Under the pieces are notes generated by a model. The model did no database searches and was not told the DNA's origin. It worked only from the letters and a program-made list of their open reading frames with translations. DNA of 64,000 bases from NCBI RefSeq assembly GCF_000400955.1, contig NC_021284.1:744001-808000 (forward strand), written 5' to 3'. Position numbers and translations under genes: made by a program. This DNA is from Spiroplasma syrphidicola EA-1. GTDB taxonomy: Bacteria; Bacillota_I; Bacilli_A; Mycoplasmatales; Mycoplasmataceae. Each line of letters begins with the position of its first letter. Position 1 is the stretch's first letter. Shown here in pieces: positions 25,305 to 57,646 of the stretch.

Positions 25305-25880
25305 TTAATTCTTATTTTCTAGTGTTACAGCTTTGTTAGCTCTTACCTTTACTTTTTTATAAATCAGAAACTCTTCGTCATTTCATAATCGTTGTTGATA
25401 GCGGCGATTAACTTTTTCGAGACTTAACGAAATGATTATTGCCATAACAATGGCAAAAACAATTTGAATACTATCGTTAACTACTTCCGCCAAAGCAACT
25501 GTTGGGTCAAAAATGAAGTATGCCGGAATAACATATAAATATGTCATTAAACTACTTAAGATAAAAACGACATACCGAGTTAAAAATTTATAACCAAAAG
25601 CGGTAATAAAAAACATTAGCGTCCTAATCGCCATTGAAATTGGGATATAAACAGGTAAACCAGTAATTAAATCAATTATCCCAACATAAATTATGCCACT
25701 AATTAACATCATTGGTCCTGGAATTAAAATAATTAGACCCAGAAATAAACCATCCGCTAATTGGAGAATACTTTGGTTTGGTCCAATCCGGATAAACTGA
25801 CTAACATACGCCAAGGTAATTAAAAGGCCTGTAATTACGCCAGTTGTAACTAGATATTTGAGTGATTTTAAACGGTACAT
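25305..25880 (-). CDS. Putative ECF transporter S component
   Basis: 191 residues with five or six hydrophobic segments and a short basic tail. The pattern of small substrate-binding membrane protein with MAIRTLMFFITAFGY in the middle and a conserved IGPNQSILQLAD loop after the second segment fits an energy-coupling-factor S component, which binds a vitamin and docks on a shared EcfA-EcfT module. The substrate is not readable. The last 25 residues come only when TGA at 25383-25385 is read as Trp. It lies 15 bases after fmt and 17 before punA, so a substrate connected with folate, purine or nucleoside metabolism is possible. No riboswitch was seen upstream. Confidence 0.6.
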
Positions 25881-39097: not shown

Positions 39098-40954
39098 ACC
39101 TTTTAAGACATAAATCTCATCTTCCCCACTCGGTCCGACATCAATTTCAAGATTAGTAATATGGCTTTTAACTAAAGCTTCTTCTCGTTCTCACATTTCC
39201 TGGTACGGATCAGTTGGTTCAGTTAAGTTAATAAAATCATCTTCAAATTTTGATTTGCGAATTTTACGGGCTTTTTCTTGTTTTTTCAACCAAATGCGGT
39301 GAATAATTGGTAGTCGTAAAATAATTCCTTTAACTGAACGTGGGGCTCATAAAATTGAATTTATTAAAATCAGCATAATTGAGGTAACAATTAATCCAAA
39401 GAAAATTGATAATAAGATGTTTCAGCCCCACTGATACTGAAAATTCTCATCATAAATATTATTGGGGTTATAGGAAACATTAATAAATAAATAGTTGACT
39501 AAAATAGCAATGATAATTGGAACTAATAGAATCATTCAATTACGAAAGACACCTTTGAAACTACTATTATAAGTTAGATACATCCAATTATAAACTCATA
39601 AGTAAACAAAGCGAATGAAAGTAACGATACAAGTAATAATTAAAATTCCATATAAAGCACTTTTATAATCATTAAAGGCGAATCGTGAAATAATCGCAAC
39701 AATAACAGAAATAACAACATTAGCAATCCCTAAGTAAAAAATCGGCATTGCTACCTTTTGGTAGTTTCCTTTCGCATAAATTAAGACATTTGCAGGCTCT
39801 CCTAAAATAATAAACACCGAAGAAATCGCAATTAATAATGAAAAAGTTGGATAATAGAAAATATCATTAAAAATAGCTAGTTCTTGGGCTGTTCACCCAG
39901 AAAAGTCAACACCAATTTGGGGAGCATATAACGCTGTCACAAAATATGGGGATAAGATAAACTGGTTAATAAATAAGAAGGCGCCAATCATAAAAGCGTA
40001 TGTTTCAAACTTAATATAAGTATCTCAATTAATACGGCCATTCTTTGCTGTTCAAGCGGCAAAAAATTCACGGAACGAATTAATTAAAATTAACATAATA
40101 CTACGAACCCCAACCGCAATTGTCATATACAGCGACAAAGTTGAAGAAATATTCAAGCCTAATAAAATGGCAACAACAATTGCATCTAAGTTAATAATTA
40201 AAGTCTCACCAATGTTTTTAAAAACAATAATATTACTCTTTTTAACTAATTGCATATTATCTTTTTGTTTCATAATTCTAATTCATGGATAATTTAGTCT
40301 TACAAACAAATAAACTAAGACGCCTTTCATTAAGGAATACATTAGGAAAATTAAGAAAATAAAAAGTGGATCAATTGTGACAGAAATTGCATAGAAAATA
40401 ATTGAATATGCAACTAAATCACAAATCATCATGACTAAACGACGAATATGGTTATTTTGATCAGCTTGCATTAAATTTTCATAGCAAGCTGTTCAAAATA
40501 ATCCAATTAAATTTTTTGAACCAATTAAAGCAACAATTATCATCATTTTTCATAAAGCATATTTTTCGGCCACGCCATTAACGGTTACTAAAAAATCTTT
40601 TTCAAAAATATATGTGTAACTACTATATGCTAATGAAATCCCTAATAATAAGAATATTCCAATAATTCCAGCAATGCGATACTGATGTTTTGTTGTATTC
40701 AAAATTTCATTAGCGCGAATATAATCTTTTTGTAATAAAGGTTTTAATAAGAAAATAACAGTTAAAGAACCTAATGCTCCCTCAACACTTCCTAAAAACG
40801 CAACAATTGCAATGGTATTCTTTACAAAACCGTTAAACTTTGGACCATAACTTGAAATTAGTAAATACATTAAAATAAATTGGAAAATCGTCCCAATTAA
40901 AGAAGTTAATGCTCCAATTAAAATTGCAAAAATCCCTTTTTGTGTTGACAACAT
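39095..40954 (-). CDS. Oligosaccharide flippase / MATE-like membrane protein
   Basis: 619 residues with about 14 hydrophobic segments, starting MLSTQKGIFAILIGALTSLIG and with a GPKFNGFVKN loop, which is the MVF/MATE polysaccharide-export fold. The C-terminal 100 residues are a charged cytoplasmic tail with no recognised domain. Five TGA codons interrupt it under the standard code. Flippases of this type carry lipid-linked sugars across the membrane. In a wall-less organism the cargo may be a glycolipid or capsule precursor. It stands alone. Confidence 0.75.
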
Positions 40955-40980
40955 AATGTTCTCCTTTTTTCTATTCTTTT

Positions 40981-41916
40981 TTATTTTATAATATTTTCCT
41001 CAATTTTAATAATCTTTTCATTTAAATATTCTAAATTACCAGAAAAATGATGAAATTCAATTTGATAAGCATACAGCGCAATCATAAAATTAGGATTAAT
41101 TCTTTTTGCCCCATATTTTTGATCATTTACAACAGGGTGTTTTAAATAGCTTAATGTTGCTCTAATTTGATGTTTCCGTCCCGTTGTTAAAGTAACTTCT
41201 AATCATGTTGAATCCACTGATGGTTTTATTACCTTAAAACTTGTTTCACATTCTTGGCTCTCTTCGACTTTTTTGGGACTGAAAACCATTCGTTTTCTTT
41301 GTTCATCTTTATAAAGATATCCTCTCACTGTTGTTAGGTCCGCTGGGAAATTACCTTGACATTGAGCTAAATATTTTTTAACAATATATTTTTTATCATT
41401 AATTTTTGTCAATAAACTATCTAATGTTGCTTTGTTTTTGGCATAAATTACTAGACCCCTAGTAAATTTATCTAAACGATGAACATGCGAAATTAAAAAT
41501 GACTGCTCATAGTTTGGATCATATTGGTTAGTATTAATTAAATAATTACGAACGCTTTGGTCTAAACTATCATGCAGTGTGGAATGCATTTCCACCCCAT
41601 GGGGTTTATCAACAATTAACAAATTCTCATCTTCATAAACAATTTTTAAAGTATTATTCTTATTATTTACCTGGGTTTGGACGGTTGGGCGATAAACAAT
41701 TTCAATATTTTTATCAAAAATTAAAATTTTATCATTAACAGCTAACAAATATTTGCGATCTTTGACACTTTTATTATTTACTTTGATTTTTTTATTACGA
41801 AATAATTTATAAATAACTGACAAACTTGTTGTTGGCAACATTTTTTTTAAAAAATTAAATAGTGTTTGACCAGCATCATTGCTTTTTACAGTTACTTCCA
41901 GAATTTGACTACTCAT
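40981..41916 (-). CDS. RluA-family pseudouridine synthase
   Basis: 311 residues. An S4-like N-terminal domain (TSLSVIYKLFRNKKIKVNN) then the catalytic domain with VHRLDKFTRG (Asp149 in HRLD) and a C-terminal KHQIRATLSYLKHPVVND segment. It isomerises uridine in rRNA; the exact site (RluC or RluD type) cannot be told from sequence alone. The start ATG 41916 has GTAGGAGCG upstream. The last 70 residues follow a TGA Trp at 41200-41202. Stands alone. Confidence 0.92.
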
Positions 41917-41970
41917 ATCGCTCCTACTAAATTTACTTTAATTTTACTAAGTTATTAAACAAAAAGAAAG

Positions 41971-42005
41971 AAAAATTTAAGAAATAACTATTAACTTAAA
42001 TTTTT
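41971..42005 (-). terminator. Terminator overlapping the stop of the membrane protein gene
   Basis: AAAAATTTAAG and CTTAAATTTTT flank a 13-base loop containing the stop codon at 41991-41993. Confidence 0.75.
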
Positions 42006-43160
42006 CTGATGTTGTTTTATTTTTTTTGGTTGTTTTGCTTTCTCAGCAGGTGGATTATCACCAACAAAAATTTCTTTACCGTTAAAAATCATAATCGCAC
42101 TTGCTAAACATAAAATTGGTCCAACTAATCAAATTCAGGTGAAAAACATTAAACTCATCATTAATAATCCCGCGGCAATTCGAGCCAGTTGGCGACCTCG
42201 CAAGATGTAAACATAACAAACAATCATTGCCACAAACATAATTACAGAAATGGTAAAGAATCCAACTAACGTTAATTTATTACTAAAGCTTAAATGTAAA
42301 TACTCAAATTCTTCTAAATTGCCAAAAATCATTAACGCACAGATAACCATGTTTGCCACAGTAATGGCAATAGCAATAGCCCCGCCAATTATGGCTGAAC
42401 GAGCTGGTTGATAACAGCGTTTATTACATTTTTGTTTTGGTAGCGGATTTTCTGGTTTATGATAACGATTATAAAGTAAGTTGTTAATTCAAATATAAAA
42501 ATATTGTAATAGGATTGCTATCGTAAAAATAACAACAAGTGAAATCACTAGTAATTCTTCTCCAAATTCTTTCGTATAATCTAAAAAGCCATAAGGAAAT
42601 CATGAAATAGGATCTTTACCATCTCATTGTCGTAGTGTTCCCCGAATAATTGTGAAAGTAAAATACAATAACATATAAAGCATGATTAGTCATAAATATA
42701 AATAATGATGTTTTAAACCATCATAGTTTTCATCCCCTGCCGTTAAAACATAACTAGTAATCATTGCAACTGGCATTACTAAATGTAAAATAACTGTTGC
42801 AATTCATCGTCATAAATCATACTGATTTGGTTCTGACGCTTGACTAAAAATACCAGTTCAAAAAACGAGCATTGTAATTGTAATATAGGTTGTAACTGCC
42901 AAACGAATAATATAATGTGGTTTAGTATTTTTAAATTTATTTTCAAATAAATAAATTAAGAAATAAAAAGCAACTAAATAATTTGTTTGGGTTGTAAAAT
43001 AAGCAAAATAAACCGAAGCACGATCGCCATAACCTAAATTAGCAAATTTTGGCATTGGATGAAAAATTGCTCAATAACAGTCAAAGATTAAAAACAACAC
43101 TAAGCAAATTAACGAAACTAATCGTAGATAAAAGTGGGTCTTGGGATTTCAAGTAAACAC
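41991..43160 (-). CDS. Pr6Pr-type (FAR-17a/AIG1-like) membrane protein
   Basis: 389 residues with about nine hydrophobic segments. The segment AYFTTQTNYLVAFYFLIYLF, near residues 45-64, recalls the Pr6Pr family hallmark of an Asn in a TQ/TN stretch. The family is annotated in mycoplasmas without a settled function. I chose the GTG at 43160 because a strong TAGGAGGAAT sequence lies ten bases upstream; the first ATG comes about 35 codons later and would lose the first membrane segment. The polar C-terminal tail is lysine- and glutamine-rich. Several Trp are TGA. Confidence 0.6.
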
Positions 43161-43190
43161 TCGCTAATTCCTCCTAAAATATTTTCTAAA

Positions 43191-43838
43191 TTAATGATCA
43201 GGGCTAATTTTACCTGCTTCAAGCGCTGCTTGAATAGTAAAATTTTTATTATGCCCTGGTAAAACATGTCATTGTGGTTCTAAATTTGTCATTTTAACTA
43301 GTTCTTTAACAAAATATTGATCATTACATAATTTTCCCGTATAACCTGGAGCATTATAATCTGGTAATAAACTAAATCCTGATGTTACTAAATTTAATTT
43401 TTTAATTCGGAATAACTGTGTTCCTTTTGTGTGACCAGGAACACTAAATACTTCAACTTCATAACCAATATCATTTGTTATTGTATTACCATCTAATAAT
43501 TCTAAATTAACAAGCGGAGAATTAATTACTGGCCCAATAATATCACCGGTAATATCATCAACACGTTTCTGAGCTAATAATTTTTCGTCCTTACGTTGTA
43601 AATAAATTTTAATATCAGGATATTTTGCTAAAACAAAATCTAAGCCATCAAAATGATCAATATGACCATGGCTAATAAATAATGCTTTTAAACTAATATT
43701 ACGTTCTGTTAAATAGTCAACAGCTTCTTTTGCTGCATTAGAAGCATCAATCATAATTGCTTCATTACTATCATTAATAATTAAATAAACATTTTGGTTA
43801 TCATATGTTTGATCAATAAAATTTTTCATTTTTGCCAT
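43191..43838 (-). CDS. MBL-fold metallo-hydrolase (glyoxalase II-like)
   Basis: 215 residues with SHGHIDHFDG (His57, His59, Asp61, His62), VPGHTKGTQ and PGHN near the C-terminus, the metal-binding set of metallo-beta-lactamase-fold enzymes. The likely activity is hydrolysis of thioesters such as S-lactoylglutathione, or another small ester. The C-terminal 25 residues follow a TGA Trp. ATG 43838 has a GAAGGG region upstream. It lies 20 bases before the gene at 43859, which ends upstream of it, so the two may share a transcript. Confidence 0.85.
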
Positions 43839-43858
43839 TTTTTTGTTTTTCCCTTCTA

Positions 43859-44542
43859 TTATTCGCTAAACTCATCTACTAAATATGAGCTATCTTCTAA
43901 ATACATTACAAAATCATCCATAATTTCCATATAAGTGCTAATACTTTCAAAACTATTTTCATTTGTTAACTCTTGATAATATAAATAAAGGCGTTCTACA
44001 AAGGTAATTCCCAATTCTTTGTTTAAAAAGATATATCCAAATCAACGACCAACTCCAGCACAAGCTCCAGCTAAAATTCAAGAGATAAAACTTAAGACAT
44101 GAGGATTATCTAAATTTTCATGATAAAACTGTGGGCGAATAAAACCCGCCTTAATAATTTCTGTTAATAAATTTAATAATAAATTAATATAATCTGTTGC
44201 TTCCCCTTGCGAATCACTATCTTCTTCAACAGCATTACTTACTTTTGTAAAACTATTCATAACAGCTTTATATAGTGCTTTAAAAGATACAACATCTTCT
44301 AACTTTACCCCTGGAAAAAAACTGTCTTCATGTTTAAAACCTACTTTTGTTCCTCAAACAGCCGAAGTATAAATACTATCAAAAACCTCAATACTTGGAC
44401 GATATCATTTAAAACGCAATGATACTTTCGGTTCAGTTATCCCTTGTTCTTGTAATTGCTCACTTGTTAATTTTAAAATTTTTTGATAATTAATTTTAAC
44501 ATCTTTTTTTGCTAAAACTTTTACGATATATGTTTTTTCCAT
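43859..44542 (-). CDS. Conserved-looking hypothetical cytoplasmic protein
   Basis: 227 residues, no signal peptide or membrane segment, no recognised domain. The N-terminus (TYIVKVLAKKDVKI) is beta-rich and the C-terminus is acidic (ISTYMEIMDDFVMYLEDS, then VDEF). TGA Trp codons fall at several places, including 44078-44080. It starts at ATG 44542 and is followed, 20 bases later, by the MBL hydrolase gene. I can give no function. Confidence 0.6.
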
Positions 44543-44655
44543 CAATAAAAACCCCTTTTTATGTTGCCTATAGTTTTAATATATTTAGATATAAATATCT
44601 ATTCTATATGATTATAGCACTATTTTTGCGTGATTAATAAAATCTAAGTCTAATT

Positions 44656-45501
44656 TTAAAATTCAAAATACTTTTCTAGTGCTTCGGCAACCCCATCCTC
44701 ATCATTTGATAAACAAGTCGTATTAGCATGCTGTTTAATATGGTTCCCAGCATTAGCCATTGCGACACCAACCCCGGCTCATTTTAACATTTCAACATCA
44801 TTTTGTTCGTTGCCAAAAGCCATTACTTCACTTGGTTTAATGTTACTTAACTGACATAACTGTTTTAATCCTCACGCCTTATTTGTTCCTTTTTTTGTAA
44901 TCTCAACAATTGCATGGTCTATTTTTACTTCATGAGAAATTTCTAACCGGTCTTGTCAATTGCTAACAATTGTGGCAATTGTTGCAATTGACCCAGCCAT
45001 AAATAATTTACCAATTTTTAAATTAGTTTCTCCCTTATATTTATTTAAGACAACTTCCTGAGAAGATTTTGACTTAAAATTTGCAAAATAATGGGCTGTT
45101 ACGCCATCATTAAAATTCTGACAATAAATTTGTAAAAAATTAAAAGTTGATTGTTGATTTTCAAACATAATAATTGTTGAAATTCCTAATTCTTGTGCCT
45201 CTGTGCATAATTGTCCGATAAAATTACTTGGTAAATGATCTTCATATAGTACTTCACCATTAAAGTTATTCCCAACTACAGCCCCATTTAAGCCAATTGA
45301 ATAATCATTTTCATCTTTTAGGCCCACTTTTTCGACTAAATGATTAATTTGATAAAGTGGTCGCCCCGAGGCAATCACTAATTTAATTCCTAATTGATTT
45401 AACTTTTGAAAAGTATTAACAGTTCGCGAAGATAATAATCCTTGCGAATTCAATGATGTTCCATCTAAATCAACAGCAACAAGTTTAATTTTTTTATTCA
45501 T
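44656..45501 (-). CDS. HAD-IIB (Cof-type) phosphatase
   Basis: 281 residues. VDLDGTSL at residues 10-17, IASGRP near 44, LNGAVV near 73 and a C-terminal FGNEQNDVEMLKWAG, the four motifs of haloacid dehalogenase phosphatases of the Cof class. Substrates are usually sugar phosphates, FMN-like compounds or pyrophosphates. A TGA Trp at 44956-44958 precedes the last third. It stands alone upstream of the cobalamin riboswitch, in the opposite orientation. Confidence 0.9.
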
Positions 45502-45643
45502 ATTTTATACTCCTTTGTAAAAACTATTTATTATTGCTTTTATTATAACCAAAATTGGACAAGAAAAATATTGAAAATTAATTTTCTAGAAATTTTAAAA
45601 GTCAGTTATAATTAATTATAAGAAAGCATTCGCTTTCAAATTG

Positions 45644-45808
45644 TTTTATTAGTTAATAGTCCTCGACTATTTTAAAGGGAATTGAGTTAAAAGCTCAAGC
45701 TGCCCCAGCATCTGTAAGGATGATGAACATTGCATAAACTCACTGAGATTATTCTTGGGAAGAGGCAATAAGTAAAGTGATTCTAAGCCAGAAGACCTAC
45801 TAATAAAA
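45644..45808 (+). promoter_or_regulatory. Cobalamin (vitamin B12) riboswitch aptamer
   Basis: The conserved core is present in order: AAAGGGAATT, then CTGCCCCAGCATCTGTAAGG, then CACTGAG, TTGGGAAG, and the B12 box AAGCCAGAAGACCT (45785-45798). The closing stem P1 pairs TTTTATTAGT (45644-45653) with ACTAATAAAA (45799-45808). A TATAAT at 45607-45612 could be its promoter. Cobalamin binding should control the plus-strand genes at 45970 and 46466. Riboswitches of this class are rare in mollicutes as far as I know. Confidence 0.9.
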
Positions 45809-45840
45809 GAAATAAAAAGTAAATATCCCTGGGGGTGTGA

Positions 45841-45898
45841 TATTTATGAGCAACGTTAAGATTTTATTGTAATAATGTCTTTTTTTAACTCATAAATA
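45841..45898 (+). promoter_or_regulatory. Hairpin of the riboswitch expression platform
   Basis: TATTTATGAG (45841-45850) pairs perfectly with CTCATAAATA (45889-45898), immediately before the terminator hairpin. It could be part of the switch between the aptamer and the terminator, or an anti-terminator. Confidence 0.5.
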
Positions 45899-45903
45899 AA
45901 AAC

Positions 45904-45932
45904 AAAGAACCCTTATTTTATTGGTTCTTTTT
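45904..45932 (+). terminator. Riboswitch-controlled terminator
   Basis: AAAGAACC and GGTTCTTT form a stem followed by a T-run, 38 bases before the start of the DUF4430 gene. With the riboswitch upstream it gives transcription attenuation. Confidence 0.85.
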
Positions 45933-45969
45933 TATTTTTTTAGCCTAAGAATTAGGAAAGGAGAACTTT

Positions 45970-46461
45970 ATGAAAAATTTTTCATGAAAAAAATATTTGA
46001 TGTTTCTAAGTCTAGCAATTGTAATTCTTGGAGCCATTATTTTAAATATCATTTATATTCCAAAATATTATGATCAACTCCATAAAAATAACAGTGTAAC
46101 TTATAAAAATGTTGAAATTCGGGCAACTGATAAAAATGGTGTTGAGTATTTAAATAAAACCCTAATTTTCAATAATGTTACAACATTAGCTGATGTCATT
46201 GAAAAAGACACCAAAGATTTTGATTATTCAGTAACACCTGGAATTGGGATTTTTGTTATCCGCATTGGTAACATTAAAACTGATATTAATAAAGAATATT
46301 TTGATCTTCGTAGTGGAGATAGCGATGATAAAGACGCGCAAAACATTAATCCAATTTGTAAAGGGGAAAATAATAGTTGCGAAAAAGGAGCAACAGATGT
46401 TATTTTAGAAGATATTAATGTCTTTCGTTTTGTTTTAACAGCTGTTAAAACAAATGGTTAA
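45970..46461 (+). CDS. DUF4430 (transcobalamin-like) membrane-anchored protein
   Basis: 163 residues: a single N-terminal hydrophobic segment (about residues 11-30) anchors the protein, and the outside part has TLADVIEKD, then GIGIFVIRIGNIKT, close to the DUF4430 pattern of the transcobalamin/intrinsic-factor C-terminal domain. Its role is probably to capture cobalamin for the ECF transporter component encoded next. Start ATG 45970 follows AGGAAAGGAG. The riboswitch upstream is the strongest evidence for the substrate. The next gene starts four bases after the stop, or overlaps it. Confidence 0.7.
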
Positions 46462-46465
46462 GCAA

Positions 46466-47089
46466 ATGAAAAAAGATATTTTTTGAACAAATTCAATTAA
46501 ATTAACAATGAAAATTACCATAATTGCCGTTTTTAGTGCTCTTGGCTTAGCCTTAAAAGCAGCGTTTGCTTTTTTACCAAATATTGAATTTGTGACCTTT
46601 ATTTTAATGTTTAGTATTTTTTTCTTTAGCATTGAAATTGGTTTTGGAATTGTGAATGTCTATTGTACTTTAAATATGGTAACCTTTGGAATTGCCGATT
46701 GAAGTTTAATGTATTTTGTTATTTTTAATTTATATGCCGTAATTATTCTTTGATTAAAACCGTTAATTAGTAAGTGATGATGAACAATGATTATTATGAA
46801 CGGCTTATTTGGTTATTTATTTGGTAGCCTTTATGCCATCCAAACGGCTCTGTTATTTAATAGTACCAGTGTTGGTTTAGCCTATTGAATTAATGGTTTA
46901 GTCTTTGACGCTATTCATGGGACCGGAAATATTATTGTTACCGCGCTGCTATTTGCTCCAGTGTATAAATTAATGGAACAACTAGTACAAAAATGACCCT
47001 TTATTTTTAATAACCGTTTTATTATTAATAGTGAAATAAATCTTTGCCAAAAAAATAAATTATCAAAAAAAGAATTAACCTTAAGTTAA
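46466..47089 (+). CDS. ECF transporter S component, predicted cobalamin-specific
   Basis: 207 residues with about six membrane segments (KITIIAVFSALGLALKAAF first) and a basic C-terminal tail, like S components of energy-coupling factor transporters. It sits directly after the DUF4430 gene and under the cobalamin riboswitch, so vitamin B12 uptake with the shared EcfA/EcfT module is the likely role. An earlier in-frame ATG at 46454 overlaps the end of the DUF4430 frame; I prefer 46466. Start and stop both fall in tight spacing, with the terminator stem enclosing the last codons. Several Trp are TGA. Confidence 0.75.
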
Positions 47090-47099
47090 TTCTTTTTTT
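47068..47099. terminator. Terminator overlapping the stop of the ECF gene
   Basis: AAAGAATTAAC and GTTAATTCTTT form a stem around CTTAA, followed by T residues on the plus strand. It also lies after the ribA stop on the minus strand. Confidence 0.85.
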
Positions 47100-47102
47100 G
47101 TT

Positions 47103-47702
47103 TTATAATAAATGACCCATTTTATCTTTTTTGGCTTGAAAATATTTTTCGTTAGTTTCATTTTTACCAACAATTAAAGGGGTTCTTGCTGTAACATTAA
47201 TGCCATTCGCAATTAGCTGTTCAATTTTATCAGGGTTATTGGTTAATAAATTAACTTCCTTTATTCCTAGTAATGCTAAAGCTACACTAGCACTATCATA
47301 ATGTCTTAAATCAGGAGCAAAACCTAATTGTTCATTTGCTTGCACAGTATCATAACCTTCATCTTGGAGATTATAAGCTTTCAGTTTATTAACCAAACCA
47401 ATTCCCCGCCCTTCTTGGGGCAAATATAAGACAACCCCCGTACTAGCATTAATTGCTTCTAAAGCGTTTGCTAATTGTTCACCACAATCACACCGTAATG
47501 ATCCTAATACATCCCCAGTAAAACACTCTGAATGTAATCGAACCAAAACTGGTTGATTTAAATTAAGTGGTTCTTTAATAATTGCTTTAATTATTTCGCG
47601 GCCATTTTGATCGCTAAATAATCTTAAGGCAAAATTTCCATATTTTGTTGGCAACTTTGCGCTGACAACATTTGTTAAGCTGTTTTCGCCCATAAATATC
47701 AT
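47103..47702 (-). CDS. ribA: GTP cyclohydrolase II (RibA), apparently without other rib genes nearby
   Basis: 199 residues. Zn-binding cysteines C60, C71 and C73 occur in SECFTGDVLGSLRCDCG, followed by YLPQEGRGIGL, the GTP-binding and catalytic region of RibA. It opens GTP to the first riboflavin precursor. The DHBP synthase half of bifunctional RibBA is absent. The start could be ATG 47702, or the second ATG three codons later, which has AAGGAA at better spacing. It begins 47 bases after the stop of nrdJ and may be co-transcribed with it. No ribD, ribH or ribE is in this window. Confidence 0.92.
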   Translation of the reverse strand: MIFMGENSLTNVVSAKLPTKYGNFALRLFSDQNGREIIKAIIKEPLNLNQPVLVRLHSECFTGDVLGSLRCDCGEQLANALEAINASTGVVLYLPQEGRGIGLVNKLKAYNLQDEGYDTVQANEQLGFAPDLRHYDSASVALALLGIKEVNLLTNNPDKIEQLIANGINVTARTPLIVGKNETNEKYFQAKKDKMGHLL

Positions 47703-47748
47703 TCCTTACAATTAGTTCATTGTTATATTTAATAATTTTTCGGTTATT

Positions 47749-50283
47749 TTATAAACCACATTTTAACTGGACATTACAGTTATTACATGTAACACATCCT
47801 CCAGCATCAATCATTGTTCCTTCTTTACAAATTGGACAAACATCACCAACCTCAGCCCCAATTTTACGGTCTTGGTTAATTCCACGCATTTTTCCAACAG
47901 TATGTAATTTTTCATCATCTTGTTGACCACTACGGTTATCAACTTCAACTCCTAATTGATCAAAGTTTAATTGTTCTAATGCTGGATGTTGTTCATCAGT
48001 TGTTAATGATAAGACTTGGGCATCACGAGAACCATCAACATAAACAGTTCCTCCTTTTGCCCCTCCTTTGTATAAACGAGTATAAATTTTTTCAACATCT
48101 TTAACTGAGTAACCACGAGGGGCATTAACAGTTTTTGAAATTGATGAATCAACTCAACGTTGAATAATACATTGTGTATCAGCATGGTCTTCTGGTGCTA
48201 AATCCATCGCAGCAACAAAAATATCTGGTAAATTTGTTGCACTATACCCTGGATTATATTTTAATCATTCATCAACAATTTTTGCATTTACTTCAATGTT
48301 TTTTCCTAATCGTCCTGAACGATAGAATTTAAAGCCAAAGTATGGTTCTAATCCTGTTGATACTCCAACCATTGTTCCTGTTGAACCAGTTGGGGCAATT
48401 GTTAATAAGTGTGAATTACGAATTCCATATTTTAAAATATCTTGACGAATATCTTCTGGCATTTTTTTCATATATCCAGTATTAATGAAACGTTCGGGAC
48501 TAATTAAGAATGGGAATGATCCTTTTTCTTTTGCTAATTCGATTGAAGCACGGTAAGCTTCTGTTGCCATTAATTCAAAGATTTTATCAACAATTTGATT
48601 ACCTGCCACACTACCATAACGAACCCCATGATAAATTAGTAAGTCATGTAATCCCATTACTCCTAATCCAACTCGACGTTCTCCTAAAGCTTGTTTTTTA
48701 TTTGCTTCTAGGAAATATGGTGTTGCATCAATAACATTATCTTGCATTCTAACACAAGTACGAACTGTTTGGCGTAGTTTATCATATAAAATTTCTTTCG
48801 TTGTTTTATCAACAAAGTTAGCTAAATTAATTGCCGCTAAGTTACATACTGAGTATGGTGCTAATGGTTGTTCCCCACAAGGATTTGTCGCCACAACTTT
48901 CATATCATATGCTTTCGCATTTGTCATATCATTTGCCGTGTCAATAAAGAAGATTCCTGGCTCTGCTGAATAATTGGCACAAAAATTAATTAAATCTCAT
49001 AAATCTCTGGCTTTCATTTTATAGTAAGTTTTAACTTTATATCCTAAAGCTTTTCATTCATTGATATCACCAATTTTTGATCAGTTTTCATCATAAAAGG
49101 CTTTTTCTTCTTTTGTATAATTATCCAAGTCAGGGAATTGTAATTCTCAATCTTCATTGTTTTCAACTGCTTGCATAAATTTATGGGTAATTGTTACAGA
49201 GATATTAGCCCCTGATAAAAAGGCTGGGTTATTTACCTCTCATGTTCCCCCTTCATCTAATTTAATGCGCGCTTCGCGAACAACAGCACTGTCATTAATA
49301 TCTGCTTCTTTGTTAACAGCATATTCATATAGTGTGCGATCAAGACTTGTTAATGGTGAAAACTTAATTTTACGACTTGCTTCATCCCGAATTAATTTAT
49401 CATTCCCATTTTCTTTTAATCAACGTAGAATTTTTGGGTTTTGCATTTTTGAAATAATAAATTCAATAATATCAGGGTGTCAGTCCGCCATCATAATCAT
49501 TTGGGCTCCTCTTCGTGACCCTCCTTGTTCAACTAAATGTGTTAAAGTTGACAAGTCATTTAATCATGATACCGCTCCTGATGAACGACCCCCAACTGTT
49601 TTAGCAACAGTTCCACGTGGTCGTAAAGTTGAGCCATTTGTTCCAACTCCTCCCCCATGTGACATAATTTCCATTACTTCTTTTCGGTGAATTGAAATTC
49701 CTTCCCGTGAGTCTTTAATAAAGGGCATTACAAAACAGTTAAAGAATGTAACATCACTATTACTTCCAGCTCCATATAAAACACGACCTGCTGGAACAAT
49801 ATTTAAGTCTTTTAACTCATTGTAAAAACTTTCTAAATGTGGTGGTTGGTTTTCCTCTTGGTTGCTTAAAGCTTTAGCAACTCTTCAAGCAATTTGTTCA
49901 TAAAAGATTTCTAATGGTTTTTCCACCATATGTAAATTTTTACGAATTATATTATTACTATTATTAATTAATAAGTCTTTATCGATACTATGAACATATT
50001 CTTCCTCAATTTTAATATCACAAGTTCCATTAATTCGATCAACTTCAACAATGTTCCCAATTCCACGAGTTGGGAATCAGCCATCATCTTTAATAACTGT
50101 TAACACTAAATCATTCTTTTTTAATGTTTTTAAAGTATTATCTTTTTGAGCATAGCGGTCTAAAACAACCATTCTTGAAACTCCATCAAAAACCATTTGA
50201 TAACTATCTTCAATTTCTTTTAGATATGGGAAATGTTCACGAATATCTTGATTTAAACTTGCTATTAATTCTTTTGCGTACAT
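47749..50283 (-). CDS. nrdJ: Adenosylcobalamin-dependent (class II) ribonucleotide reductase
   Basis: 844 residues, typical of the larger class II enzymes. The ten-stranded barrel carries NPCGEQ with Asn467, Cys469 and Glu471 (radical site) and the redox Cys pair C183 (NCFVMPF) and C480 (YSVCNL). The C-terminus ends in a zinc ribbon (CPICKEGT, CVTCNNC, LKCGL). The enzyme reduces ribonucleotides to deoxyribonucleotides using vitamin B12 as radical source, so it works in anaerobic and aerobic conditions. It lies two genes from the B12 riboswitch and uptake genes. The start MYAKELIASLN at 50283 follows AAAGGAGAG. Many Trp are TGA. Confidence 0.95.
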
Positions 50284-50384
50284 TTTAAACTCTCCTTTTT
50301 GTCAAATTAGTGGACATAATTAAGTATACCAAACTTTTTTATAGTTTTTAATTTGAAACACTTTTTCTTTTTTTGGTAAAAAAA

Positions 50385-50408
50385 TGCTTTTGTTATTATA
50401 CAAAAGCA
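50385..50408 (-). terminator. Rho-independent terminator of mupG
   Basis: TGCTTTTGT and ACAAAAGCA pair around TATTAT, followed by seven T on the minus strand. The stem overlaps the mupG stop codon. Confidence 0.88.
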
Positions 50409-51436
50409 ATTGGTTGGCCAGGTTTTAATAATTCAATTAAAATCCCTTCTTTTTCCAGGTTTGCAAGGTAATTAGTTTTTTCATCAATTTTAATTGGTAA
50501 TTTTGTGAGATAAATCTCGCCATTATAACGATGATAATTTTCATTATCAATTAATAATGTATACGGTTTAACTTCGCCGCTAATTTCATTCTGAAATGGT
50601 ACGACTAGACTATTATTTTGTCCTAATCCCCGACTTTCTAAAAACCTTAAAACATAAGAATTGCTATCTTCGCGCAAATGATAACGCTGATTTTGTAATT
50701 TTGCGATAATCGCTTTTGGCAGATTAGCATAATCTAATTTTATCGTAATATTGTCCGATTTGTTAATTTTTGTTAAAAATTTTAATTCTTCTTCACTAAC
50801 ATTTAAATCCCCAATAATACAAGTATCAATATCGTGCTTTTTATATCATTGTAACTGGACATATGGCTCTAAAAAGCGCATTTTTTCGACTGTTGGTAAT
50901 CCTTGAAAAACAGGTTTACGAGGATGGGCTTGAGAAGCAATAAAGGCATTTGTTTTAACACCATATTCTTTAATAATTCGATTACGATAAATTAAAGTCC
51001 CCTCATCCATCCCAGTATATGGTTTTGGATAAAAGTTATAAGAAACCGATAAACGACTACTTCCTCGTAATTTAATAATTTCAATAATATCATCTAAGCT
51101 ATTATCACTACCATTGATTTGAATATCAAACGGTAAAGTATCAATTATGCTAATTACTTCGGTAAGACTAAAACCAAAGTCTAACCGAATCGCATCTGGT
51201 TTTCAAGTCATAATTTTTGCTTGATCAAAATATTTTTTACTAATGTCAAGACAAACATACATCCCTAATTGTTGGGCATAATTAATTAAAGTCGCTAATT
51301 CAGTCTCATTTTGGCTTTCGACCAAATGGCCACTACAAAAAACATAATTAAAGCCGGCGCTTTGCGCTGTTTTTAAATAAGCTTGGTTTTCGGTCAAACT
51401 CATTTCTCCCGTTGTATAAATTGAAACTCCTAACAT
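50396..51436 (-). CDS. mupG: MupG-like 6-phospho-N-acetylmuramidase (DUF871)
   Basis: 346 residues. The N-terminus MLGVSIYTTGEMSLTEN, then IQINGSD, GLPTVEK and a C-terminal beta domain with PYTLLIDN are the DUF871/MupG pattern. MupG in Bacillus hydrolyses MurNAc-6-phosphate-GlcNAc disaccharides inside the cell. It follows murQ on the same strand (23 bases after a hairpin), which supports a muropeptide role. The strong AGGAGGT ribosome-binding site argues for expression. Several Trp are TGA. Confidence 0.85.
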
Positions 51437-51458
51437 CTTGACCTCCTGTTATGGGAAT

Positions 51459-51486
51459 AAAAGACATCTCAAAGGAGATGTCTTTT
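51459..51486 (-). terminator. Hairpin between murQ and mupG
   Basis: AAAAGACATCTC and GAGATGTCTTTT form a 12-bp stem around AAAG, between the murQ stop and the mupG ribosome-binding site. There is no room for a separate promoter between it and mupG, so mupG probably depends on readthrough or a leaky stem. Confidence 0.8.
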
Positions 51487-51495
51487 ACCTATAAA

Positions 51496-52401
51496 TTATT
51501 GATTTTTTAATACTGCGGCAATACTGTTATTAGCTGTAGCTAGTAGGGTAATACTTTCCTCATAATTAACATTACAGAAAATCATCACTATGGCATGCTT
51601 ACATGAATAATTTGCTTCCACTAATGCGGCATTGATTTTTTCATCATCCGCCCCAGTGATTTCTTTAATAATCCGTGCTGTTCGTACTTTTAACTTCTCA
51701 TTTGAAGCTTTTAAATCAACCATTAAATTTTGGTAAACTTTTCCTCATTTAATCATTAAGGTTGTTGAAATCATATTACATACTAACTTTGTGGCTGTTC
51801 CGGCTTTCATTCTTGTACTTCCAGTTACAACTTCTGGGCCAGTTACAACCGCAATTGTTTGGTCGGCAACGGCACTCATTTCTGAGTTTTTTGTCATACA
51901 CATTCCAACCGCTAAAGCGCCAACTGTTTTAGCATATTCTAACCCAGCTAAAACATATGGTGTTCTTCCTGAAGCAGCAATTCCAATGACTGTATCTAAT
52001 GGTCCTAAGTTAATTGCTTTTAAATCAGCAACTGCTTGGGTTTCATCATCTTCAGCTCCTTCAACGGCATTACGAATGGCGTAATCTCCCCCAGCCATAA
52101 TACCAATAATAAGTTGATCACTAACACCATAAGTTGGGGGCATTTCAGAAGCATCTAAAACACCAATTCGCCCTGATGTTCCAGCTCCAATATAAATAAC
52201 GCGACCATTTTGTTGAAAACGGGGAAAAATTAAATCAACAACTGTTGTAATTGTTGGCAATTCACTTTTAATCGCCTCAGCAATTTTCCCATCTTCATTA
52301 TTAATAATTGTTAAAATTTCTGATGTACTTTTTTGGTCAATATCCATACTATTTATATTTCTTTGCTCAGTATCAATTTTTGACAAATCAATTTTTTTCA
52401 T
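51496..52401 (-). CDS. murQ: N-acetylmuramic acid 6-phosphate etherase
   Basis: 301 residues. Start ATG 52401 has AAGGAG seven bases upstream; an earlier codon would sit on that site. SIS-domain motifs are clear: GAGTSGRIGVLDASEMPPTYG, then GIAASGRTPYVLAGLEYA and GSTRMKAGTATK. MurQ cleaves the lactyl ether of MurNAc-6-P to GlcNAc-6-P and D-lactate. It follows the PTS gene by 22 bases, so both are in one transcript with rpiR. Confidence 0.95.
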
Positions 52402-52423
52402 AAATAACTCCTTCATTTAACTT

Positions 52424-54145
52424 CTATTCTACTTTTGTTTTAGCAATTTTTAAGCGTTCAGCTTTTGGTAATTGATAATATGATACTGTTCAGTACACAA
52501 AAATCCCAACTACTGTACAAAAGGCTGTTGTTCATAAAATTTGTTGTCAAAGTTTATATTTACCATTTTTTTTGTACAATTCTTTCATATCTTTACCACC
52601 AATTTTAACAATTCGTGAATATCCAAATAAGGTTACTAATAGTCCCCCAGCAATTGATATTCCACAAGCGATTAAGTATAAAATTACTGCTAAAACAATA
52701 TTTCCTGAATCAGTTGTCATCATAAAGGCTGCTAAAATTCCTGATGGCCCAAACATTGCGTTAAGACCAAAAGTAATGTTTCCTCACATTGACATTGCGC
52801 CAATAAAGAATCCGGCAAAACCAGCTCCAATTGATGAAGTAATAAATGGACGAACACGAGGTAAAGTTACCCCATAAATCATTGGTTCTCCAATTCCAAA
52901 AAAGGCTGGAATCAATGATCCTTGAATTTGACGACGTAATAAACTACCTTTATCAGCTAATAATCATAAAGCGATTCCAGTTCCAAACTGAGCCATTCCA
53001 GCCATTGCTAAAATTGGGAATAATCCATTAACACCAGTTTGTTGAATCATCATTGCATAAATTGGGACAAATCCTTGGTGAATTCCAAACGCGACCGCAG
53101 TTAAGAAAATTGCGGCTAGGACGAAGGCTCCAAATGGATTTGTATGGAGATGAAGAAAGAATCATGCTACTCCCATGTATAAATATCCTGAAACAGGAAT
53201 TAATACAAAAATATTTAAGATTAATAATGCGAATAAAACTAGGGTTGGTGTTCCAATTGTGTCAAGAACTCCAGGCATAAACTTACGAACCCCACGTTCT
53301 AATCAAATTGAGGCTGTTGCTGTTAATAATGCTCCTAAAATATTTCCTGAAGCATAACCAAAAACTCATTGCCCACTTTCATTCATTTCAGGACGGAATC
53401 CAACTGTTAATCAGTTACTTGCTGGATTATGAATTGGAATTCCTAAAAAAGTAATATTATTTGGATCAGTATTGATAATTAATTTAATTAATTCTGAACC
53501 AAAAACTGGTGAATACATTGAAGCAACCATTGCTCCTAATACTCCACTACCTCCAAATACTTCGGCTGTTCTTCAACCAACAATAATAATGAAGGCATTT
53601 TTTCAAATATTTAATAACAAGTTTAAAGCGTTAAATCATGACTGAACAACTGCTGAAGCGGTTGTAATATCGCCACCAAAAGCTGATTGCATAATTCCAG
53701 CAATCCCAGCTAGAATCCCTGCTCCAATGAAACCAATAATCATTGGTGAGAAAATTCGTGAAAACTTCGTAAAGAAGTTTTGTAATCAATTTGATTTTCC
53801 TTTTATTGCTCCTTTTACTTGTTTTGCGACGTCAGCAGCACTGACAAAGTCGGCGCTTTGTTCAGCACCATCAACTGGACTAGTTTGTTGTGCATTAACT
53901 AATTTCCCAAATTCTTGGGTAACTGTTCCAACAAAACCAGGTCCTAAAACGATTTGTAATTCAGTTGCTGAGGGTGTTAAAATTCCCATTACATTTGTTA
54001 CTGTTTTTAATTTTTCTAAATCTACGTTAACGCCAGGTTTGATGTTTAAGCGTAGTCTTGTTAAACAATTTGTAAATGAAACAACATTCTCAGGCCCAAT
54101 TACACCGACAAGATCTTGTGCGGTTTGTTTTGGATTTTTTGCCAT
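52424..54145 (-). CDS. murP: PTS EIIBC component, probably for N-acetylmuramic acid
   Basis: 573 residues. The EIIB domain is first, with the phosphorylated Cys27 in TNCLTRLR. A linker rich in Gln, Ser and Ala follows, then the EIIC glucose-superfamily domain with about ten membrane segments and the substrate loop GIGEPMIYGVTLP. EIIA is not fused, so a separate EIIA, usually of the glucose type, must supply the phosphate. Order with murQ just after and rpiR just before gives MurNAc as the probable sugar, although sequence alone cannot tell from trehalose or beta-glucoside permeases. Confidence 0.8.
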
Positions 54146-54181
54146 TTTCTATTCCTCCTGATATATCCTTTATTATCTTAA

Positions 54182-54218
54182 AACAACTGTTCTTAATTCA
54201 CAATTAAAAACAGTTGTT
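54182..54218. promoter_or_regulatory. Inverted repeat between rpiR and the PTS gene
   Basis: AACAACTGTT and AACAGTTGTT, ten bases each, flank 17 bases that contain a smaller AATT repeat. It may be an operator for the RpiR-type regulator, or the terminator of its gene. Confidence 0.55.
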
Positions 54219-54254
54219 CTGTAATTTCACATCAAAAATTGTAAAATTTTCTAT

Positions 54255-55091
54255 TTAAAATTTATTAATAATGGTATTTTCTAAAATATGATGATATTGC
54301 TCCATATCAGTTGTTAATAAACTTGAATACAGCATATCTAATGCAAATAATAAGGCAAAACGACTTGTTGTCGAAATTAATCGTTCAATTGATTCATTAC
54401 TTGAAATAGTAATTGCGTTATTAGCAATTGCCGCTAAACTATTATTGGCATTTTTACAAATAACAGCAACTGGGGTTCTATTATCTTGGCAAATTTTTGC
54501 TAATTTAATTAAGTCTAACGTTTCCCCTGAATAACTAATAAAAATTGCTAAATCATCAGGCGATAATTGTTTTGCCAGAAAATAACCGCTATGAAAATCA
54601 TTAACAGCAAAAATATTAAAACCTAACCGCAACAGTTTTTCTTGAAAATCCTTAGCAACGTTATATGTTCCCCCAACGGCAAAAACAACAATTTTACGAC
54701 TTTTTTTAATTAAGGTAATTATCTCATCAAAACTTTCTTTTTGTTTAATCACTAAACGAAATGTATCGTGTAAAGTTTTAACAGTATTGTGGTATCCCTT
54801 AATCATAAAACTATTATTATTTTGTTCATTTAAGAGGAACTCTTCTCCCGTTAAATTATAATTAAAATATTTAATAACATGAATTAATTCTTTGTAGCCG
54901 TCCAAATCAAGGTATTTAGTAAAACGATTTATTGTTGCAACAGAAGTATAAGTATATTCTGCCATTTCGGTAATTGTAATATCAGGGATAATAGCTAGAT
55001 TTTGAATAATATACTTTGCAATAAATGAAAAGCGATGATCACTGTTTAAACTAATTTCCTTGATTTTCCGAATAATATCATTTTCTGTCAT
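54255..55091 (-). CDS. RpiR-family transcriptional regulator (MurR-like)
   Basis: 278 residues. N-terminal helix-turn-helix with TITEMAEYTYTSVATINRFTKYL and a C-terminal SIS sugar-isomerase domain with VFAVGGTYNVAKDFQEKL and IFISYSGETLDLIKLA. In MurR-type regulators the SIS domain senses MurNAc-6-P and relieves repression. The gene is followed by the inverted repeat at 54182-54218 and the PTS gene, so it probably controls them. It starts nine bases after a small membrane protein gene. Rather than fused, it is separate from the etherase as in MurR/MurQ operons. Confidence 0.88.
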   Translation of the reverse strand: MTENDIIRKIKEISLNSDHRFSFIAKYIIQNLAIIPDITITEMAEYTYTSVATINRFTKYLDLDGYKELIHVIKYFNYNLTGEEFLLNEQNNNSFMIKGYHNTVKTLHDTFRLVIKQKESFDEIITLIKKSRKIVVFAVGGTYNVAKDFQEKLLRLGFNIFAVNDFHSGYFLAKQLSPDDLAIFISYSGETLDLIKLAKICQDNRTPVAVICKNANNSLAAIANNAITISSNESIERLISTTSRFALLFALDMLYSSLLTTDMEQYHHILENTIINKF

Positions 55092-55100
55092 AATTGCCCC

Positions 55101-55301
55101 CTAATGTTTTTTATTATATCGTTCAAAAATAAACCATAAAATCATTAAACAAAAAAAACCTAAACCAGCCAAAGATAAAAGCACAATGGCAACAATAATA
55201 AAATCAAATAAATAAAAAATAGTTCCAATTCCAGCTAATACTGCTAAGCCAAATAATGATCAGCTAATAATTTTCTTTTGTTTTGTTGTAAAACTAAACA
55301 T
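55101..55301 (-). CDS. Small two-segment membrane protein
   Basis: 66 residues, with two hydrophobic segments (SLFGLAVLAGIGTIFYLFDF and IVAIVLLSLAGLGFFCLMI) and a basic C-terminus. It contains a TGA Trp at residue 14, so it is easily missed in standard-code searches. The start ATG 55301 has GGAAGGTG upstream. It lies nine bases before the start of the RpiR-family regulator and probably shares its transcript. No function can be assigned. Confidence 0.6.
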
Positions 55302-55456
55302 CTTTTTCACCTTCCAATAATATAACTATATTATAACGAATTAATTACTATTTTGATACTTAGTTTAATATTATAATCTTTAATAATAAAAAACTTCTTA
55401 GATTACAAGTCAAATCTATATTACTTTAATAAAGTATCATTTGAAAATAATAAATA

Positions 55457-55483
55457 AAAAGACTAAATATCTTAGTCTTTTAA
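55457..55483 (-). terminator. Terminator after the propeller protein gene
   Basis: AAAGACTAA and TTAGTCTTT pair around ATATC, with T residues following on the minus strand. Confidence 0.75.
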
Positions 55484-55522
55484 AATATTTCTATAACTTA
55501 AATTTTTTTAAAAAGTAAAATA

Positions 55523-57646
55523 CTACTCATTTTTTAGGATATACACGCCATTGTCACCATTATAACTTTTTCTAAAACCTAAAAATGTCCCGCTTTTTAA
55601 TTTAATGGCTAATTGCATTTCTTCTTCATTAGGGAACCCAGTTTGTTCTTTAAGACTCAAATCTGAATAAAGATGATAAATACACTTAGTTTGCGCTGCT
55701 CCCCCTAATAAGATAATGCCCGAATTTTCGGATTGAAGAAGGCTATAACCTCAAGCATTACAAACTCCAGGAGGATTAAGGAAAATTTTCTTTTGAATGC
55801 TATAATCTTTATTTAATTGAATAATTTCTTCACCATTCAAGTTAGACGTCAAGAAAATTGATCCATTTTCTAACTGATATAAATAAGTGTAGGAAATATC
55901 ATCATATTTTTTAATTTGTTTTAGAAGAGTCCCATCCGCATTAAGTTGATATAGAGTAGGGTTTTTTTCTGAACTTATTCCTAAAATAGTTCCATTGTGT
56001 AAAAAAATTATGTCACCCAATTTGTCATTTAAAGGATTATTAGGATTATCTTCAACTTTTTTTATTATTTTTCCACTTCTACTATCTAATAAAAATAAAC
56101 CTTTAGAATATCCTAGCCCCATTAATATATTGTTATCAGGTGTTTTTATAATTTTATTAAAAATTTGGTCTTCTACTTTAGTAACATATTTACCATCAAG
56201 ACTAAATAAGTGTGTCCCTTGTCCTTTATTTTCTACTCATCCTGAAACTAATATTAAATTATTTTCTAATTCAAATGCTGTGTCTAAATCGCTAATTTTA
56301 ATATCATTTTCTACCTTTTCTTTAATTTGACCTAATTCTTTATTAAAACTCCGAAATTCTACTGTAATTAAATAACTATCATTAATATAATAATCTTTAC
56401 TATTACTTTTAACCTTAATTTTTGCTTCCTTATCAACAACATTACCAGGTATTACTTCAACTTGATCAATAAGAACATTTTTATTTTTTAATTTAACTGC
56501 TTCTAAAATTGTCTTAGATTTATAATTTTTAATATCCCCTAAATTAATTTCAGTTAAATCGTTTGATAGCATTTTTCTATCTGTATTACTAAAATATAAT
56601 TCTAATGATTCATCTGAAACATAAATTGATTTTTCCCCTTGCGAAACTAAATTTCCTTTTAAAATAATTTGATTATTTTCAACTGTAATAATATTTTCAA
56701 TATTGACATAGTCTAAAACTAATTTTGGGTTTTCTAATTTAATAATTTTCAATAATTCTGGTGGGTTTGGTGAATTAGTGTTGATAAAAAAATTTCTCTT
56801 TATAACATGGGTTAATAAAGAAATCTTTGTAGGTAAAAAAGAAACTATGACAGTTGAATCAGTATTATAAATATTACTTGAAGATTTTACATAAATAACT
56901 GCATTTGTATCAGTAATATTTTTTACTAATAAATCCTGTATGTCTAATTTTTTATTTTTCTTTTTTGCGGCTTGTAAAATTGAGTTTTCCCGATTATCAT
57001 TAATTAAATCAAGTTGAGAATCAGCAAGATGTTCATTTAAATCAATTCGTTGCTTACTTGGATTAATTATTGATCCGGAATTATTTTGCCCAGATAAAAA
57101 ATATCAACTTAAAAAACCACCCATTGCTGCAAACATTAAAATAAAAACTAAACTAAGTAACATAATTGTTTTTCGCATTTTTGACATATGTAAAAAATGT
57201 TGGCGATGAATCAACGTCATTTGACGACTAAAACTTTGTTTTAGAGCGTGATTATTTTTTTCAATTATTTTTGGAACTAACATTTGTTGTTTTTTTGTAG
57301 TTGTTAAACTATTTGAAACTAAATTATAGTCCTTGATTTTGTGAATTGTTTGTTGTGATAATAAGATAGTATTATTAATAACTGGTATTTTGGTAGTGCC
57401 ATCTCCATTATAAATTGAATCTTTTCAAATAAAAACATATGAGTCTTGACGACAAAAAATTAATGCCAAAGGCAAAATATTTTTATCATCTAATACATCT
57501 CGTGTTTTATCAACTTTACACTTAAATAAATCTAGGTCATTTAAATTTTTTTCTCGGTTATTTTTAACATATGAGATAATGTTTCTAAATTTAAATTGAC
57601 AGTCATAACACATTTTATTGTAAATTAACTGAATTTTATTGTTCAT
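55523..57646 (-). CDS. Membrane protein with a Cys-rich head, spiralin-like domain and beta-propeller-like end
   Basis: 707 residues. The N-terminal 150 or so are cytoplasmic, with Cys residues at MCYDCQFKF and FKCKVDK (possible metal or redox site). One membrane segment lies near residue 165 (TIMLLSLVFILMFAAMGGF). After it comes a domain of the spiralin type (residues 185-270), then a C-terminal half of four-stranded repeats, with GYSKGLFLLDSRSGK, GTILGISSEKNP and GSIFLTSN, that read like a beta-propeller. No enzyme motif. It might sense or bind something outside. Trp codons are TGA in places, so the gene looks split in the standard code. No partner gene is evident. Confidence 0.65.

Follow-up and report, generated by a model that had tools for sequence, protein, structure and literature searches.

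A cobalamin riboswitch upstream of a predicted B12 capture and uptake operon in Spiroplasma syrphidicola, and a possible exchange of switches on reductase operons among its relatives

The window, the whole 64,000-nucleotide stretch of the Spiroplasma syrphidicola EA-1 genome that was analyzed, carries a cobalamin riboswitch in front of two genes whose products resemble a B12-binding protein and a B12 transporter component. With a probability of roughly 85%, we read this RNA as switching off a B12 capture and uptake operon when adenosylcobalamin (AdoCbl) is plentiful, within a circuit that would also take in two sister switches of the same genome and the AdoCbl-dependent ribonucleotide reductase NrdJ. 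The parts and the logic are already known elsewhere. As a mollicute regulon the circuit is new as far as the searched literature goes, in which no description of a B12 riboswitch regulon in Spiroplasma or other mollicutes was found (many subscription papers lie outside it). TGA is required as a tryptophan codon throughout, and the genome is a single contig of 1,107,344 bp, in agreement with the mollicute host proposed for this DNA in the original prediction. With this circuit, a wall-less bacterium whose genome measures 1.1 Mb would run a B12 economy made up of capture, uptake, adenosylation, one AdoCbl enzyme and regulation by RNA. Among 17 mollicutes surveyed in 2009, most (88%) were reported no longer to use nickel and cobalt (PMC2667541).

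The aptamer was matched by cmscan (Rfam 15) over the entire RF00174 model (positions 1-189 of 189, not truncated). It exceeds the family's gathering score of 31.5 bits more than threefold in the covariance search that the original prediction had set as its own refutation test, and the riboswitch it described is genuine. It is the sole gathering-level Rfam match in the whole window, and a permissive scan of positions 40000-56000 gave no other Rfam match up to E 1. Judged by its sequence, it is an unremarkable representative of a familiar class, sharing the core, P6 region, B12 box and L5/L13 kissing loop of the family. The core motifs named beforehand are all present (CTGCCCCAGCATCTGTAAG from 45700, GGGAAG and the B12 box AAGCCAG-AGACC); the coordinates were right overall, but the proposed start at 45644 cuts about 11 nt off the 5' end of the match. 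It departs from the usual RF00174 member in that its stems are rich in A+T (33% GC) and its host is a mollicute that reads TGA as tryptophan. A nearly identical copy is found in the relative G132 (108.2 bits). Upstream, TATAAT is kept at the same place in the orthologous leaders of G132, G082, G174, G061 and G201, and the TTATAAT of the window is probably the -10 region of the leader promoter; a promoter scanner found no leader promoter above chance.

Table 1. Positions of the features discussed, in window coordinates unless a contig or locus is given (G000 is the window genome).
Feature	Position	Strand	Basis
Probable -10 region (TTATAAT) of leader promoter	45606..45622	+	TATAAT kept in orthologous leaders
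Cobalamin riboswitch aptamer (RF00174)	45633..45818	+	cmscan, 107.9 bits, E 4.5e-26, full length
Aptamer L5 segment CUGCCCCAGCAUCUG; CCCAG is the kissing-loop half	45700..45714	+	sequence, L5/L13 comparison over leaders
P13 hairpin AAATATC-CCTGGGGGTGT-GATATTT; loop L13 CTGGG pairs with L5 CCCAG	45821..45845	+	
Predicted antiterminator 5' half UGGGGGU; can pair with ACCCUUA (45909-45915)	45830..45836	+	RNAfold
Intrinsic terminator hairpin (45904-45930) and U-tract	45904..45941	+	compensatory change in G132
Gene 1, membrane-anchored, predicted transcobalamin-beta/DUF4430-like domain, 163 aa (code 4)	45970..46461	+	AF2, Foldseek, VIA
Gene 2, CbrT-like ECF S-component, probably for cobalamin, 211 aa (code 4)	46454..47089	+	profile against PDB, AF2, fold
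ribA, GTP cyclohydrolase II, convergent neighbour of the gene 1-gene 2 operon	47103..47702	-	TIGR00505, 241 bits
nrdJ, AdoCbl-dependent class II ribonucleotide reductase, 844 aa	47749..50283	-	NF005991, TIGR02504
Second cobalamin riboswitch, before nrdF-nrdI-nrdE	G000:C1:482221-482385		
Third cobalamin riboswitch, before ABC-2 permease operon	G000:C1:1026564-1026724	-	
2'-dG aptamer of G118 (nrdJ from L196 874 onward)	L196 728-792		

Three elements follow the aptamer in order: the hairpin with the CTGGG loop, a long A/U hairpin (45841-45898) and the terminator, which reads AAAGAACC, 11 nt and GGTTCTTT before its U-tract. The hairpin and intrinsic terminator expected here are thus present. The G132 terminator, AAAGGGCC/GGTCCTTT, differs by one pair changed on both sides (A-U to G-C) and by one A-U pair that has become G-U. 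A simple consensus terminator scanner reported only a hairpin at the start of the aptamer (45622-45637) and missed the terminator because its loop is longer than the scanner's limit. Nearly all leaders share the kissing-loop complementarity of the window (CCCAG with CTGGG), with loop changes that co-vary: L5 CCC faces L13 CUGGG in 44 leaders, ACC faces CUGG with C, U or A as the next base in 17, and a two-sided change gives CCU with CUAGG in 3.

For transcripts ending at about 45917-45925, the minimum-energy structure from RNAfold pairs the two antiterminator halves listed in Table 1, and from a transcript end of 45929 onward the terminator fold wins, the predicted antiterminator being 2.1 kcal/mol weaker (-25.9 against -28.0). 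This order of folding suggests that ligand-free RNA could make an antiterminator ahead of the completed terminator. The statistical case is weak, as antiterminator complementarity in the window leader does not go beyond composition (z -0.8; mean z -0.92 over 60 related leaders). With cobalamin bound, L5 would kiss L13, P13 would be held and the terminator would form, turning the operon off; in ligand-free RNA, L13 together with its 3' flank would pair with the 5' side of the terminator and polymerase would read through. A coupling of kissing loop to terminator through P13 and an antiterminator was demonstrated by mutation for the repressing corrinoid riboswitch of Priestia megaterium metE (PMC10653944). 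The window leader shares with it the kissing loop, P13, the terminator and, by prediction, an antiterminator made of P13-side bases and the 5' side of the terminator. Unlike in metE, it is L13 itself that contributes the larger part of the predicted antiterminator half in the window leader, and the predicted structure encloses the separate hairpin at 45841-45898.

Pfam and NCBIfam gave nothing useful for the gene 1 and gene 2 proteins of the window, and alignment profiles and structures were therefore needed for both. The AF2 model of the gene 1 protein (mean pLDDT 85) has an N-terminal helix followed by a beta domain, and its top matches in the PDB were human intrinsic factor (E 1.5e-5), the DUF4430 structure 3u7z (1.7e-5) and transcobalamin. 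Foldseek matches ran from E 1.5e-5 to 2.6e-4 at probability 1.00, and the first 18 were all of one fold. VIA-align gave a Z of 14.1 against 3u7z and 11.2-12.4 against transcobalamin, haptocorrin and intrinsic factor, whereas the next-ranked fold reached 6.7. The earlier description of a DUF4430 gene holds in kind, since the fold agrees and 4 of the 14 members of the gene 1 alignment reach this family in Pfam (best 2.8e-7), but the window copy itself has no match to PF14478 up to E 10. The predicted fold is that of the cobalamin-binding beta domain of transcobalamin and intrinsic factor and of bacterial DUF4430 proteins, and the gene 1 protein may likewise bind cobalamin. This suggests that a transcobalamin-like fold is used for B12 capture at the bacterial surface.

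For gene 2, a profile of 16 relatives run against the PDB matched ECF-CbrT (6fnp) at E 1.9e-15, with other S-components absent from the listing, and the AF2 model (pLDDT 88.6) aligned with S-component folds at Z 10-12.6. These matches support homology of gene 2 to CbrT, the B12 S-component, and cobalamin is its likely substrate; ECF-CbrT is a demonstrated cobalamin importer (PMC5997447). The genome also encodes EcfT, a component of the ECF module (C1:232696, 151.9 bits). A B12 transport function of the genes behind the switch, as originally proposed, is supported. The proposal had missed the CbrT-like identity of gene 2, the neighbouring nrdJ and the other two B12 switches of the genome, one of them in front of a B12-independent reductase. 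In L. delbrueckii the gene order is nrdJ-cbrS-cbrT-pduO (PMC5997447), and a CbrT-type S-component stands beside nrdJ there as it does in the window; L. delbrueckii uses a PduO-type adenosyltransferase, whereas that of the window genome is CobA-type and encoded elsewhere (C1:943482). A DUF4430 protein also adjoins the class II reductase gene of L. rhamnosus (PMC9963975).

The nrdJ gene scores well above model cut-offs (NF005991, 1322 bits against 854; TIGR02504, 572 bits against 400), looks intact and is convergent to the gene 1-gene 2 operon. Its leader is short, and neither reading it nor the Rfam scan of 40000-56000 revealed a riboswitch before the gene. Because no PF02310 (B12-binding-domain) protein and no PduO-type adenosyltransferase were detected in the genome, NrdJ is the only AdoCbl enzyme detected. 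The second of the three RF00174 switches lies 170 nt upstream of nrdF-nrdI-nrdE, which encode the class Ib, B12-independent reductase, and this leader has a terminator (AGCATCCC...GGTTGCT) 3' of the aptamer. The third precedes an operon of an ABC-2 permease, a 329-aa lipoprotein without a known family and two small genes; no convincing solved homologue of the lipoprotein was found. In the relative G031, homologues of this lipoprotein and permease are encoded with a gene 1-like protein and an ABC ATPase in one switch-led operon, and by this association the third operon is probably tied to B12 acquisition. The corresponding lipoprotein gene appears split in the nrdJ-less genomes G094, G189 and G115, in which the aptamers are still well kept.

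In the circuit we propose, the gene 1 protein would capture cobalamin on the outside of the cell for transfer to the CbrT-like S-component, which would work with the shared ECF module, and the CobA-type enzyme would supply AdoCbl to NrdJ. When AdoCbl is present, nrdFIE would be repressed by its own switch while NrdJ makes deoxynucleotides, and the third switch would bring the ABC-2 permease/lipoprotein operon under the same signal. The same regulatory logic was proposed for Propionibacterium acnes, in which B12 riboswitches lie on nrdAB and nrdDG and not on nrdJ (PMC3848588). As in the window genome, the B12-independent reductases carry the switch and the B12-dependent one does not, but the P. 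acnes target is nrdAB instead of the class Ib nrdFIE. P. acnes also expresses cobalamin biosynthesis genes, whereas the B12 genes found in the window genome are those for uptake and adenosylation. The circuit predicts that B12 provided by the host or the host's microbes influences DNA-precursor supply in Spiroplasma.

The aptamer might instead bind cobalamin and act on translation, with hairpins that hide or free the ribosome-binding site (RBS, 45955-45966) and an incidental terminator. Some cobalamin riboswitches do act in this way (PMC10653944), and because no good terminator was found in the same-operon leaders of G082, G174 and G061, control there may differ or be translational. In the window, however, the RBS lies 14-25 nt past the U-tract and outside the predicted alternative structures; the terminators of the window genome and G132 have a long U-tract and are kept by compensatory change, and clear terminators occur in the nrdF leaders of several relatives. 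We regard translational control of the window operon as unlikely on this evidence.

Less probable still is that genes 1 and 2 serve another substrate and merely co-opted the switch. The window copies do lack significant Pfam matches, and the plain Foldseek ranking for gene 2 points, weakly, to ThiT instead of CbrT. Against this stand the ECF-CbrT profile match, the transcobalamin-type fold of gene 1, the operon shared with CobA in G141 and the L. delbrueckii gene order cited above, all of which favor cobalamin. It is very improbable that the aptamer is a relic, or has changed ligand, with its sequence kept and cobalamin switching gone. Such a course could be imagined from the shortened aptamers lacking P6 and J6-3 that precede nrdF in the nrdJ-less genomes G037, G057, G103 and G126 (22.6-27.2 bits), but the window copy has a complete core and scores 107.9 bits, its G132 counterpart is nearly identical, and nrdJ, the adenosyltransferase gene and the CbrT-like gene are all in the genome. 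Transcriptional repression of a B12 operon by AdoCbl is the reading we retain.

A survey of 298 genomes of the order for RF00174 and nrdJ, and of a family set of 60 for the 2dG-I class, placed the window in context. RF00174 was over threshold in 35 of the 298 genomes and nrdJ over its cut-off in 31, with the switch found in 22 of the 31 nrdJ genomes compared with 13 of the 267 others (Fisher p 2e-17, phylogeny ignored). The exceptions are 9 nrdJ genomes without an over-threshold switch and 13 switch genomes without an over-threshold nrdJ. That riboswitches are few in mollicutes is only partly right, given these 35 genomes with RF00174 and the presence of 2dG-I in 23 of the 60 family genomes. 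Downstream of the relatives' switches lie orthologues of genes 1 and 2, a gene 2-like gene alone or, in many genomes, nrdF-nrdI-nrdE. In G141 the switch is followed by gene 1-like, CbrT-like and CobA/BtuR (PF02572, 2.4e-51) genes in one operon. The switch of G112 (C1:166178) precedes the class III genes nrdD (PF13597, 1e-182) and nrdG, and in G198 (C1:136045) the same aptamer type precedes an apparently broken nrdD frame. Several genomes of the window's genus also have a switch before an operon for a nucleoside phosphorylase, a deoxynucleoside kinase and a transketolase, which might offer the cell another source of deoxynucleotides. This switch lies about 400 nt upstream (L060, L063, L065, L078, L057, L059, L107) and occurs in species without a reductase found by TIGR02504 as well.

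Class Ib nrdE is present in 40 of the family genomes. An over-threshold cobalamin switch precedes nrdF in 8 of the 10 that also have nrdJ, and in a single one of the 30 without nrdJ, G079, which has an nrdJ-like fragment containing a stop (Fisher p 5e-6, on counts that ignore phylogeny). A 2dG-I riboswitch lies about 2 kb upstream of nrdE in 11 of the 30, and in nrdJ-less genera, for example G005 (L197) and G097 (L199), the 2'-deoxyguanosine (2'-dG) riboswitch before nrdF-nrdI-nrdE occupies the place that the cobalamin switch has in the window's genus. In related genera the Mesoplasma florum 2'-dG riboswitch (RF01510) precedes this same nrdFIE operon; it differs from the cobalamin switch in ligand and aptamer and was not found in the window's genus. 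The shortened cobalamin-type aptamers mentioned above precede nrdF in 4 of the 30 (G057, G103, G126 and G037; L087, L091, L092 and L093), where the P6 region and J6/3 (distal core) are lost and the L5/L13 kissing bases, P13 and the terminator are kept. They represent decay or a new minimal variant. No genome has both switch classes before nrdF. G118, which has nrdJ and no cobalamin switch, carries a 2dG-I aptamer of 52.1 bits (threshold 51) 82 nt before the nrdJ start. On balance we lean towards the view that Spiroplasmas and their relatives exchange riboswitch classes on reductase operons according to the reductases they own, with a cobalamin switch on nrdFIE (and on nrdD in two species) where nrdJ is present, a product-sensing 2'-dG switch or a shortened aptamer in many genomes without nrdJ, and the 2'-dG switch before nrdJ itself in G118. 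The nrdFIE operon stands under a B12 switch in some genomes, under a 2'-dG switch in others and behind a shortened aptamer in a few, and the choice mostly follows the presence of nrdJ; this natural series opens riboswitch replacement to study.

Elsewhere in the window, positions 25305-25880 (-) encode another ECF S-component (TIGR04522, EcfS_MSC_0063, 194.5 bits) that adjoins a purine-nucleoside phosphorylase-like gene, and positions 32023-33612 (-) encode a lipoprotein containing several repeats in tandem, each roughly 80-90 residues long.
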